The notes beneath the pieces are model-generated. The model searched no databases, was not told the DNA's origin, and saw only the letters and a program-made list of their open reading frames with translations. 64,000 bases of DNA from Lachnospiraceae bacterium (GTDB lineage Bacteria; Bacillota; Clostridia; Lachnospirales; Lachnospiraceae), in contig JAAUZX010000024.1 in assembly GCA_014804365.1 (NCBI GenBank), positions 19,470 through 83,469 on the forward strand, read 5' to 3'. A program made the translations under genes and the position numbers. Each line of letters opens with the position of its first letter. Positions within the stretch are counted from its first letter, which is position 1. This document shows, one piece after another, positions 57,692 through 63,842 of this stretch.

Positions 57692-57778
57692 ATTGTATCC
57701 AAATCGTCCGATTCCGGAAGCTGTTTTAGCTAAAATAATATTCCTCAAAAATCTATTTACATTCCTTAATAGATTTCA
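57692..57778 (-). pseudogene. degenerate copy of the 3' end of the small ORF at 59982-60170
   Basis: About 85% nucleotide identity to 59948-60034; minus reads 'CK*IFEEYYFS*'. Confidence 0.7.
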
Positions 57779-57808
57779 AGGAATAATGTCCGTGATTTCA
57801 ACTTTATT

Positions 57809-57850
57809 TTGGGATGAATCAAATATAAATACATACTTGATTCATCCCAA
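57809..57850. repeat. perfect 14-bp inverted repeat downstream of tspO-like gene
   Basis: ttgggatgaatcaa ... ttgattcatcccaa with 14-nt spacer. Confidence 0.8.
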
Positions 57851-57854
57851 AGTT

Positions 57855-58895: not shown

Positions 58896-59010
58896 ATTTT
58901 GGGTTGAATGCTTTTTTGATACAAAAGGTGTCCAGAGTGACCAAAGCATCATTTCATTCATAAAAAGAGCCGAAAACCTTGTTAATCAACGCTTTCAGCC
59001 CTATAACAAA

Positions 59011-59032
59011 ACTGCGGAAGATGGGACTTGAA
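59011..59032. repeat. putative att site: perfect 22-bp copy of the tRNA-Leu 3' end and flank
   Basis: actgcggaagatgggacttgaa identical to 63605-63626. Confidence 0.85.
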
Positions 59033-59285
59033 ATTTTATCCTGTTGTGAAACCCGCATAGAAAAGGGATTTCAGCACATCAGTCAACGAGTGTAACCTAA
59101 AGTGTAACTAAATTCTGTTTTTTGGGTAGAAATAAGGTAGCCTGACCGAGTTTTATGTATTTCTATGACAAGAGCCTTTGTAAATAGATAAAAAGGTTTA
59201 CATAATATATATGCTATCAGAAAAAAGAGATAAAATCATAATAAAAAGACCCCTCGGATGAGGGGCAAAAAAGTATAAATATTTG

Positions 59286-59705
59286 TTATTCCTCTTTCAT
59301 TAAAGCAATAAAATCATCGGGAAGTATCGCTTTTACTATCCCGTGTTGGTAATCTTTCACATTTCGCGTAATGATGTAATCAATATTTGCCTTTACAGCA
59401 GCTCTTTCAACCACAGCATCTTCATAGTCACTGACTGCCGATGCGAGGGCGTCTACACATTCAGCACCCGAAACAGCAAGTATTCCAACAAGGGAATACA
59501 GTTTTCCCATAACTTGTTTAGCCTGATCTGCACTGTGGAGGTATTTTCTTACCAAATAATAAATATCCGTAGCAGAACTTGCCGTAATATACATGTCTAT
59601 TATATGGTTTGCGGACATAATGAAAATAGTTTCTGCACTTTTGTTCCATGGCGCTCTGGATGTCAGTGCATCAATGATCACATTAGTATCAATCAGCACT
59701 TTCAT
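59286..59705 (-). CDS. PIN-domain toxin (VapC-like)
   Basis: 'MKVLIDTNVIIDALTSRAPW...DYEDAVVERAAVKANIDYIITRNVKDY'. Confidence 0.92.
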   Translation of the reverse strand: MKVLIDTNVIIDALTSRAPWNKSAETIFIMSANHIIDMYITASSATDIYYLVRKYLHSADQAKQVMGKLYSLVGILAVSGAECVDALASAVSDYEDAVVERAAVKANIDYIITRNVKDYQHGIVKAILPDDFIALMKEE

Positions 59706-59921
59706 TTATTTTGCACCAAGCCTCTCTTTTTTGGATTTATCTATATCTGCATCTTTGGGCAGGATACCAAATAAGGATTTTGCAGTTTCTACTCTGTCCT
59801 GATATGGATTGGTCAGTTTTGCTACTACTTTTCCGTTTTTTGTTATAAAAACATCTTCCGTAGCAGATAATATCAGATATTTTCCAAGATTATTTTTGAG
59901 TTCCGTTGCTGTAACTGACAT
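59706..59921 (-). CDS. Phd/YefM-type antitoxin
   Basis: 'MSVTATELKNNLGKYLILSATEDVFITKNGKVVAKLTNP', abuts the PIN gene. Confidence 0.9.
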   Translation of the reverse strand: MSVTATELKNNLGKYLILSATEDVFITKNGKVVAKLTNPYQDRVETAKSLFGILPKDADIDKSKKERLGAK

Positions 59922-59981
59922 ACAAACACTCCTTTCTTTGTACTGTTATTATATCCAAATCGTCCGATTTCAGCAACTATT

Positions 59982-60170
59982 TTAGCTAAAATAATATTCC
60001 TCAAAAATTTTTTCACATTTCTCAGTGGATTTCTTTGCTGAAGCCATCCGGAGGTGTTTGTCATCTGGATGGCTGGATTTTCTTCTGATCGCCAATACAG
60101 TGTATTGAGGTAGGTGTTCTTTGAAATATAGTTCTATATGTTCTTTGATTTCAGTTATATCTTTACTCAT
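59982..60170 (-). CDS. small hypothetical protein (62 aa), part of element
   Basis: 'MSKDITEIKEHIELYFKEHLPQYTVLAIRRKSSHPDDKHLRMASAKKSTEKCEKIFEEYYFS'. Confidence 0.55.
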   Translation of the reverse strand: MSKDITEIKEHIELYFKEHLPQYTVLAIRRKSSHPDDKHLRMASAKKSTEKCEKIFEEYYFS

Positions 60171-60173
60171 AAA

Positions 60174-60679
60174 GCTTTAATCCGCCTAGCAACTTCATCC
60201 TGTTGATTGGTTTTAAATTTTACTTCAACGGAACCATACTTTACCCGTATATAAGACATAGATGCAGGGCGTGAAGAGAACTTGTGGTAATCGTCAAAAT
60301 GTATGTACCACATCTGCTTTTGGCTTGCTCAGCGGAAACTAAGCGCCTTAAATTCCTTCCTGCATTCATAACAGTTTGATACCCATATCCACATACCGAT
60401 GATCCCGACGGTAATGTCCTTGAATCTGGATAGCTATATGATGATGTCCCTGATCTGTGCATCTTTCTGCCAGTCATACTGCTGTTTCTGCTTGTCAGTA
60501 GCATTGTTGTATGTATCCGCATGTTCATAGTCCGTTTTCATTCCTTTAAACAGAATGTCGTATTCAGCATTGATCTCCTTAATGGAGTCTTCCGAGCCGA
60601 CGTTGTCGGAGTGGTATTTTATAACATGCCGCCTGTATTCTTTCCGAAGATCTTTCAGTGTTTTATATTCTGGAACCAT
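60174..60679 (-). pseudogene. frameshifted DnaJ-domain-like gene remnant
   Basis: 'YKTLKDLRKEYRRHVIKYHSDNVGSEDSIKEINAEYDILFKG' then frame breaks; tail '...WYIHFDDYHKFSSRPASMSYIRVKYGSVEVKFKTNQQDEVARRIKAL*' recovered in another frame. Confidence 0.65.
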
Positions 60680-60811
60680 TTCGTAAGTGTGACTCCCTTC
60701 TTAAAAAGGGATACCGCCGAAGCAGTATTCCTGAAATAAAATTATTCTGTGTTTTGATCAACTTCTTCGGGAGGTTTTTCTTCCCCATTTGTTTCATTGG
60801 TTTCTGCTTGT

Positions 60812-61450
60812 TCAGGTGCAGTATAGGGGGTCAGCATCCGCTAAAGATGTGCCGTCATCTGTCCTGTCAGGTTCAGCAGGAGGGAAATTCTCTTCCGATA
60901 AAGGAACATCCTGTTCATTCTGCGTTGCATCGTTCAACTCAAAATATTCCGCAAGGGAAGATTCCATAACTTCAATCCTTTTCAGTGTCTTTTCCTTCTT
61001 GATACTGCCAGAAGAACAGTACTGCTTATAGTCTTCGTAGCATTCATCAAAGAAATCGGAGAACCACTGCCTGAAATACATGGGACCTACACGGTAAAGA
61101 TTCTTGAGTGAATCATAACCGCTTCCTATTGCCGTACAGCGGCAAGCATGGCGATCGGGATATTGATTTTCTTGAGCAGTTTTTCCTTTTCAGGAAAAAC
61201 TTTTCAAGATAGTCAATGATGTCATACAGTCTTTCTTTCAGCTTCTCTGAATAATTATTCTTGATAGAGGAGGCATACCGCGTGATCTCGTCGCGGAAAT
61301 AGAAGTAAACTTATATCCCTCATATCTGTTATCCAGAAGCACCATACCCTGCAGGAGCGTGTACATGTCATCAGATTTCCTTCTCTGCAGAGTGGAGAAC
61401 TGGCAGATTTCCGAAAAGAACCTGTCAGACAGGTGCTACTTAATGGATAT
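60812..61450 (-). pseudogene. frameshifted mobile-element-type gene remnant (family uncertain)
   Basis: Coding-like stretches in successive frames: 'DRFFSEICQFSTLQRRKSDDMYTLLQGMVLLDNRYEGYKF' ... 'MYFRQWFSDFFDECYEDYKQYCSSGSIKKEKTLKRIEVMESSLAEYFEL'. Confidence 0.55.
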
Positions 61451-61615
61451 GTAAATAAAATTAGTAAAAGCATCTTTTGAAAAATACTATATAATGTGGT
61501 TTGCAACTAAATCAACTACATTATGCAGTGCTTTTTGTTGACAAAAATAGTTTTACTTGATATAGTGATAATGAAGATTTACATTATATTACAGAATTTG
61601 ACAGAGGAAAATTTT

Positions 61616-62191
61616 ATGGTTAAGTATAAAACAAATCAAAAATTTATACATAAAATTGTCAAGTCTGTTAAACAACTTTTTGTAGTAAAATTTAAAAGTA
61701 AGCAGAAACGAATAGATGAAATTGCCGAAGTTGTTAAACAGCTTGAAAAAGTTGTAGGTGATGATTGTAAGAAAATGAATAAAGAAATAGAGATATTAGA
61801 AAATCAAGGTCTAGAAAGCATAGATTATATGCCAACGCCCTTTGAAATAGCAGAATACTATGGAATTAGATGTGTATTTAAACAAATAAAAAATAGAAAC
61901 GAATTGTCTTATTTTAGCAGAGAGTCACTGACAATTTTTATCTCGGATAGATATTGTGAAGATGATTATAAAGCGAGGCATTTATGTGCACATGAGTTAG
62001 GACATTTTTTTTTACATCATAATCGGATATCGGCAATGAATAATTATTTAAGTAAAACAAACGAAGAATATGAGGCAAATGTTTTTTCGATTCTATTAAT
62101 GCCACAAATTATGGCAGGGAGTCAATGGGAAGCTATGAGCCCTAAAAAATTAAATAGTATCATATATAGGAAGGTATTTAAAAATGAATAA
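61616..62191 (+). CDS. ImmA/IrrE-type metallopeptidase (A) with N-terminal Lys-rich coiled-coil
   Basis: Zincin 'RHLCAHELGHFFLHHNRI' and 'EEYEANVFSILLMP'. Confidence 0.85.
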   Translation: MVKYKTNQKFIHKIVKSVKQLFVVKFKSKQKRIDEIAEVVKQLEKVVGDDCKKMNKEIEILENQGLESIDYMPTPFEIAEYYGIRCVFKQIKNRNELSYFSRESLTIFISDRYCEDDYKARHLCAHELGHFFLHHNRISAMNNYLSKTNEEYEANVFSILLMPQIMAGSQWEAMSPKKLNSIIYRKVFKNE

Positions 62192-62279
62192 TACTCCCTT
62201 TTTTGATAAAATAATTTTTTCTTTTTTAATATAATAGGGAGAAGAGCTTTTTGATAATAGAATTGGGAAAGGTGATAAC

Positions 62280-62861
62280 ATGTGTAAAGATTTTTTGAGA
62301 AGTATACGGGATAAATCGAAAGAAATAGATGATATGCCTGAAAGAGCACAGGATGTTTTAGATTTTTTTAAAATTGACAATTTCTCTTCAGGAGTGCCTA
62401 TAGTTGAAATATTAAACAAAATGGGGTTTAAAATTTTTCAAAGTGACTTGGAACCTGATGATTTATCTGCTTATATTGCGGTCGATCCTAAATTTAAAGA
62501 TACTTTTGGCTCTAACAAGATTACATGTGTTCACATTAAAGATAGCGTTGGACATAAATCTTTTGCTTTAGCACATGAATTAGGGCATTATCTTTTTGAT
62601 TTTAATGAAAGTAAAACTTTATATTACTACGATACTTATTTCCCTAGGGAAAATGAGGAGAAATTAGAAGAAAAACGTGCAAATAAGTTTGCAGCAAATC
62701 TTTTAATGCCCGAAAAAATTTTTCGGCAGGAGTTTGCAAAGCTTGAAGAATTGCAAAGTAAAGCGGATATAGTTAATGAATTGGGGCATCGTTTTCGAGT
62801 TTCCCCTACTGCGGTATTAAAAAGATTCCAAGAACTAGGAATCACTGGGTTTAATGATTAA
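62280..62861 (+). CDS. ImmA/IrrE-type metallopeptidase (B)
   Basis: Zincin 'FALAHELGHYLFDF', 'EKRANKFAANLLMPEKIF', C-term 'RFRVSPTAVLKRFQELGI'. Confidence 0.92.
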   Translation: MCKDFLRSIRDKSKEIDDMPERAQDVLDFFKIDNFSSGVPIVEILNKMGFKIFQSDLEPDDLSAYIAVDPKFKDTFGSNKITCVHIKDSVGHKSFALAHELGHYLFDFNESKTLYYYDTYFPRENEEKLEEKRANKFAANLLMPEKIFRQEFAKLEELQSKADIVNELGHRFRVSPTAVLKRFQELGITGFND

Positions 62862-62881
62862 ATGGAGTGTTAACATGAAAT

Positions 62882-63451
62882 ATGAAAAAGAAAGTTTCTG
62901 AGAGCAAGAAGATAGCTGATGAGAATTTAAAGAAGATATGTAATGCAAAATGTGTAGAGTCAGAAGAAATGTTATTGCATCATGTTGATTCTGAAAAGTT
63001 AGTTAAAGATAATTTAAAAAAATTTGATAAAGCACAGATTGTTAAGTCGGATAAGGCATTATATAAAAGCGATACTTCAAGTTTATCTAAACACAATAAG
63101 CAGTACACTGTATTGTTAAAGGCTTATGTAAAGGATTATAAATATAATTCTGAAAATAAAAAGAAACATAAAGAAGATTTATTTAAAGTTGCCAAAGCAT
63201 TACTTATATTAATGCCAATCCTTACAATTATTTATATGTTTTCCACATTATATTGCTTAATGTATAATAAAATAGATGTTTTGGATTCTTTGCCAGGTTT
63301 ATTTGCAGCTTTGGCAGCTTTGATAGGGACTTTTATAGTAATTCCTCAAATGATTACTGAATATTTATTTAATAAATCAGAGGAGGAGCATTTGACAAAT
63401 ATTATTGGTAAAATTCAAGATTATGATAGGAATATTAGAGATGGTTTATAA
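62882..63451 (+). CDS. membrane protein (189 aa) with two N-terminal ~29-aa repeats and two TM segments
   Basis: Repeats 'SKKIADENLKKICNAKCVESEEMLLHHVD' / 'SEKLVKDNLKKFDKAQIVKSDKALYKSDT'; TMs 'ALLILMPILTIIYMFSTLYCLM' and 'LFAALAALIGTFIVI'. Confidence 0.75.
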   Translation: MKKKVSESKKIADENLKKICNAKCVESEEMLLHHVDSEKLVKDNLKKFDKAQIVKSDKALYKSDTSSLSKHNKQYTVLLKAYVKDYKYNSENKKKHKEDLFKVAKALLILMPILTIIYMFSTLYCLMYNKIDVLDSLPGLFAALAALIGTFIVIPQMITEYLFNKSEEEHLTNIIGKIQDYDRNIRDGL

Positions 63452-63594: not shown

Positions 63595-63606
63595 ACATTT
63601 AAATAC

Positions 63607-63690
63607 TGCGGAAGATGGGACTTGAACCCACACGTCGTTTCCAACACTAGATCCTTAGTCTAGCCTGTCTGCCAATTCCAGCACTTCCGC
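63607..63690 (-). tRNA. tRNA-Leu(AAG)
   Basis: Reverse complement GCGGAAGTGCTGGAATTGGCAGACAGGCTAGACTAAGGATCTAGTG...GGTTCAAGTCCCATCTTCCGCA; anticodon loop CTAAGGA. Confidence 0.92.
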
Positions 63691-63842
63691 ATGCGTCTAC
63701 AACGCAAGTAATATCTTACTATCACCATATCAAAAAGTCAAGAGATTTCCACCTGATTTTTTACATTTATTTCATTTTTTATGATCGTTGAGAATTTTTG
63801 CACTTTTTTTACAAATAGATTCAGAAAGATTCACAAATGGGC

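Follow-up and report, generated by a model that had tools for sequence, protein, structure and literature searches.

A conserved M78 peptidase and two-TM membrane protein gene pair in Clostridia, with a putative RosmerTA-like function

Introduction

M78 (ImmA/IrrE-type) peptidases are best known for cutting HTH repressors, and RmrA, the ImmA-domain antitoxin of the RosmerTA systems, often carries an HTH domain of its own, although this is not universal. The toxins held in check by RmrA vary, and one of them depolarises membranes; in the RosmerTA pair of the Gordonia phage Kita the toxin that depolarises membranes has TM segments, and the anti-phage activity of the pair has been shown (PMC10440598). 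The usual targets of M78 enzymes are DNA-binding repressors (PMC2701414), and enzymes with this fold cleave partner proteins, as in PprI-DdrO and CapP-CapH (PMC10904395). An earlier survey predicted that COG2856 proteases belong to toxin-antitoxin systems in which their partners are HTH, PIN or RelE proteins, and it set aside pairs made of a membrane protein and an Xre repressor (PMC2701414). Here we describe a locus in which a peptidase of this kind is paired with a small membrane protein, and compare it with these systems.

Results

A preliminary description of the window (the whole stretch of 64,000 nucleotides analysed here) reported two M78 zincins and a two-TM protein encoded head-to-tail on one strand, an arrangement that was found as described:

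61538-61566, + strand: promoter-like site, TTGACA-17-TATAGT, sigma-70-like and TG-extended, 11 of 12 consensus positions, by consensus match alone
61616-62191, + strand: ORF 1, 191 aa, ImmA-type M78 peptidase by Pfam and relatives, HELGH intact (HELGHFFLHH; Pfam Peptidase_M78 E = 7.5e-10), outside the conserved unit
62280-62861, + strand: ORF 2, 193 aa, M78 (ImmA/IrrE-type) peptidase, HELGH intact (HELGHYLFDF; Pfam Peptidase_M78 E = 1.5e-15), first gene of the conserved pair
62882-63451, + strand: ORF 3, 189 aa, two-TM membrane protein, predicted N-in/C-in from hydropathy and the family alignment, second gene of the pair
62903-63061, + strand: imperfect 24-residue repeat in ORF 3, residues 8-31 vs. 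37-60

Both peptidases score above the curated cut-off of Pfam Peptidase_M78 and retain HExxH and the downstream E; in the frame of ORF 1 an alternative start is possible at 61523. No HTH family of Pfam matched any of the three proteins, in agreement with the earlier remark that the cassette lacks an HTH gene. The G+C content of the cassette is 28.4% vs. 42% in the flank.

The three genes had also been described as lying open inside an otherwise decayed integrated element. This was confirmed, the borders of the element being located by direct repeats and empty sites:

59008-59032, + strand: left direct repeat, att-like, 24/25 identical to 63602-63626
59033-61520, no strand: rest of the decayed element, with a PIN/Phd-type pair and broken genes
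63602-63626, + strand: right direct repeat, att-like, at the 3' end of tRNA-Leu(aag)
63606-63691, - strand: tRNA-Leu(aag), the integration site, unbroken in four genomes of the same genus

The repeat-to-repeat spacing gives an insertion length of 4,594 bases, and the three genes adjoin the tRNA end. With a query in which the left flank was joined by script to the right flank, empty sites were recognized in four genomes of the genus (L093, L094, L095 and L101) as an unbroken alignment across tRNA-Leu(aag). Within the element we found a broken DnaJ-type gene, whose intact relative is present in L108 (same genus), and no integrase. The same left element end occurs in L111:1-1119, also from this genus (94% over 102 bases), together with two ORFs that, judged by eye, resemble pieces of a tyrosine integrase. 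A toxin-like gene with a PIN_3 domain (59286-59921, - strand; E 6.7e-20) lies in the element alongside a Phd/YefM-like antitoxin gene that scored below the cut-off. Two further genomes of the genus have copies of this PIN_3 gene at about 83% DNA identity, and the setting differs in L105, the one that was read.

Searches with ORF 3 showed that the membrane protein family is rare. In 200 genomes of the family the only match was a decayed fragment of a closer relative in another genus (L002:1501-1602; 53% over 34 aa, one stop). Five same-sized relatives (L036-L040) were retrieved from 391 genomes of the class, and a contig scan with two of them added another six (L056-L061), not counting L055 and L062, which duplicate the contigs L037 and L039. 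A profile built from all twelve members led to L086 in a further family sample (E = 2.7e-23), so that the intact relatives in other genomes amount to 12. We regard matches to large proteins (L003-L005) and matches interrupted by internal stops (L041, L042) as chance.

At ten of the 12 loci (L036-L039 and L056-L061) the gene directly upstream, on the same strand and at a gap of about -30 to +20 nt, encodes a single-domain M78 peptidase with HExxH. The eleventh, L086, is preceded by an M78 relative without HExxH, and the upstream ORF of L040, the only relative lacking an M78 partner, is unrelated. The peptidase gene always comes first in the pair, no HTH gene belongs to the unit at any locus, and, since the remaining neighbours vary from locus to locus, the unit consists of two genes. 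Together, these results show that genes of the ORF 2 and ORF 3 type form a two-gene unit that is conserved and mobile in Clostridia and has no repressor gene.

ORF 1 does not belong to this unit. The preliminary description had treated the three genes as one cassette, but no relative of the first peptidase was found beside the membrane protein at any of the other loci (0 of 12). Hence, of the neighbourhood proposed for the three proteins, the co-occurrence of ORF 2 and ORF 3 was borne out and that of ORF 1 was not. Most relatives of ORF 1 detected in 245 Clostridia genomes have the ordinary size of ImmA, and an HTH_3/XRE-type gene lies upstream in 12 of the 16 loci inspected (ten confirmed by Pfam, and two, L077 and L083, assigned by eye from the listing), whereas in the window such a gene is absent. 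The refuting case named in that description, in which both peptidases come from unrelated HTH-linked operons, is probable for ORF 1 and fails for ORF 2. From these sequence comparisons we take ORF 1 for a stray ImmA protein of the element, a neighbour apparently unrelated to the pair, whose HTH partner was probably lost as the element decayed. Its N-terminal extension of about 55 residues is missing from the aligned relatives. Residues 6-37 (61631-61726) show a weak similarity to the C-terminal end of the M78 profile, a likeness that might reflect chance, fusion or permutation; at 10.8 bits it was too weak for us to accept a circular permutation.

The second peptidase matched the PADLOC capP profile (E 2.8e-22), and its structure model (pLDDT 85) has as nearest solved structures CapP (7t5t, E 7e-6), IrrE and PprI with single-stranded DNA. 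Both its length and its model account for the M78 region plus flanking helices only, with no GAF-like sensor domain. The partner peptidases of the family likewise measure 175-195 aa and comprise M78 only, and the 11 that bear HExxH, the window included, all matched the PADLOC capP and RmrA profiles. As these short partners lack the C-terminal GAF-like domain, their trigger is likely to differ. HExxH and the third-ligand E are kept at 11 loci, counting the window, that is in 11 of the 12 M78 partners, which suggests that catalysis usually matters. The exception is the gene upstream of the L086 relative (L088:8690-9226, - strand), whose product still aligns with the C-terminal portion of the M78 profile and reads AFFIAN at the position of AHELGH, both His residues and the Glu of HExxH being gone. 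In that lineage cleavage cannot be the whole function, which argues for binding and not for cleavage alone. The membrane protein is still a possible substrate of the peptidase.

ORF 3 has hydrophobic segments at residues ~99-128 and ~133-160, and a net-positive stretch ahead of the first one suggests that both ends of the protein are cytosolic. After the second segment the family conserves the motif ITxYLF(N/P)xxEExxxTxII; the N-terminal region is variable in the family alignment and shows no obvious conserved site. The repeat noted earlier in this protein proved genuine, with 10 of 24 residues identical and a score of 49, where shuffled sequences averaged 23.3 (sd 4.7) and none of 2000 scored as high; the alignment revealed it in the window copy only and in none of the relatives. 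No Pfam family matched ORF 3 above the cut-off, and nothing meaningful was found in NCBIfam, PADLOC or PHROGs. In the low-confidence model (pLDDT 67) a long helix leads into TM1 and is followed by a second TM helix and a helix at the C-terminus; no PDB chain matched it in a fold search, for which the model is too weak to allow a conclusion.

For both genes of the pair dN/dS was ~0.07-0.14 where synonymous change was unsaturated, implying purifying selection. The pairwise distances of the membrane protein and the peptidase correlate over eleven loci (r = 0.97; 0 of 10,000 permutations reached this value), a co-divergence to be expected wherever genes are inherited together, and in itself no proof of contact. 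The idea of a selected module of peptidase and membrane protein thus stands for ORF 2 and ORF 3, which are both under selection and mobile, with ORF 1 removed from it.

Two of the loci lie among known defence genes. In L047 NsnABC-type genes are found a few kb to one side of the pair, and on its other side, ~7 kb away, lies a CBASS cyclase together with a SLATT_4 effector; in L059 a single gene separates the pair from AbiLi/AbiLii upstream, and a large serine recombinase follows directly downstream. The pair of L048 is situated between a phage-type endolysin, accompanied by more phage-like genes, and tRNA-Lys; L045 has phage-like genes nearby, and ~2.5-3 kb from the pair in L058 there are tRNA genes and an integrase. 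These surroundings favour a defence setting without deciding the matter, and a defence or stress role for the pair is plausible. Even though several copies adjoin prophage or integrase genes, none turned up in scans of viral contigs or in tblastn searches of phages and plasmids, and we discarded the notion of a phage or plasmid gene family. No ssrA 3'-end repeat was found near the pair in L046.

Discussion

How does this unit compare with the described systems? With RosmerTA it shares the two-gene layout of an ImmA-domain (M78) protein and a small partner, and the protease region of all eleven partners matches RmrA profiles that contain M78. On the other hand, the pair peptidase lacks the N-terminal HTH and is half the length of the RmrA models, its gene always comes first, and no PADLOC RmrT model matched any of the 12 membrane-protein members at E <= 1. 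Because it has neither the HTH nor an RmrT match, we do not file the pair as RosmerTA; this is its closest functional precedent, and the pair would at best function in a similar way. In the case of CBASS CapH/CapP, capP is the best PADLOC match for all eleven partners and CapP the nearest solved structure; in contrast to that system, the unit contains no HTH gene that could stand for the CapH repressor and no CD-NTase (the only one is that ~7 kb off in L047), the window peptidase has no C-terminal GAF-like domain, and its partner is a membrane protein. The ImmR/ImmA proteins of ICEBs1-like elements and prophages resemble the peptidases in size and core fold, and ORF 1 is of the ImmA kind, whereas the conserved pair has no adjacent HTH repressor gene and has a membrane protein as partner. 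Finally, the SLATT 2TM effectors are likewise small, with two TM segments flanked on either side by cytosolic helices. Pfam SLATT_5/6 gave weak matches in 2-3 members (best E 0.03), all below the cut-off, and hhalign against one SLATT_4 protein was negative; membership in SLATT was therefore rejected.

By analogy with RosmerTA, we propose that ORF 2 and ORF 3 encode an HTH-less toxin-antitoxin or abortive-infection pair of the binding type, a putative function to which we give a probability of roughly 0.5. Both proteins would probably be translated from one mRNA, and the two-pass protein would insert into the cytoplasmic membrane so that each end faces the cytosol and, if unrestrained, might assemble and break the membrane barrier. 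The M78 protein would act as antitoxin and sensor, binding the cytosolic helices and holding the effector inactive, and it may additionally trim or degrade it. Disturbed by a trigger, for example phage infection or DNA damage, this restraint would give way, and the freed effector would lead to cell arrest or death. In support of a toxin-antitoxin function we count the pairing, the tight spacing, the co-inheritance, the purifying selection, the matches to capP and RmrA profiles and the setting, mobile and at two loci among defence genes; against it count the partnerless L040, the weak membrane model, the absence of RmrT matches and the retention of HExxH in all but one of the M78 partners.

An alternative, which narrows the protease-controlled effector of the preliminary description to the two conserved genes, is a proteolytic switch, in which the peptidase would cleave the cytosolic N-terminal region or the C-terminal tail of the membrane protein, turning it on or off after a signal. 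The conserved HExxH and third-ligand E, the adjacent and co-inherited partner genes and the precedents of PprI-DdrO and CapP-CapH (PMC10904395) are consistent with such a switch, which we nevertheless consider unlikely given that the L086 partner lacks both His and the Glu of HExxH, that the N-terminal region is variable and offers no obvious conserved site, and that the known M78 substrates are HTH repressors.

With DNA-binding repressors as the usual M78 targets (PMC2701414), the membrane protein could instead be a regulator and no toxin, one that holds or activates the peptidase while the true target, a host or phage repressor or some other protein, is encoded elsewhere. The conserved cytosolic helices could bind the enzyme and several copies adjoin phage genes; but no locus has an HTH gene in the unit, the unrelated neighbourhoods share no third gene, and the usual kind of protease activity is impossible for the partner in L086, all of which makes a membrane-anchored sensor protease rather improbable. 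That both peptidases act on the membrane protein as a true three-gene system is very improbable, for although the genes share a strand, one good consensus promoter ahead of all three and an open state in a 28% G+C stretch of the decayed element, ORF 1 is missing at all 12 relative loci and its own relatives are mostly HTH-linked ImmA proteins.

Returning to the proposed toxin-antitoxin pair, a more general possibility, which we put forward tentatively and regard as doubtful, is that M78 peptidases may gate a membrane-disrupting immune effector directly, through binding and cleavage and without a repressor step, at least one member doing so by binding alone. A recurrent operon whose sole partner is a small membrane protein, along with one case without HExxH, makes protein-to-protein restraint by the M78 fold testable. 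The unit is a candidate defence pair for which the searched releases of Pfam, NCBIfam, PADLOC and PHROGs have no entry as such.

Some minor observations were made in passing. An 86-base direct repeat, 85% identical, has one copy outside the element (57692-57777) and one inside (59948-60033), and an inverted repeat at 57808-57851, TTTGGGATGAATCA, adjoins the outer copy. A different M78 pairing was seen in two genera of the family (L008 and L014), where a single-domain M78 peptidase lies directly upstream of a ~500-aa protein in which cyclase-like and NUDIX-like stretches were recognized by eye.
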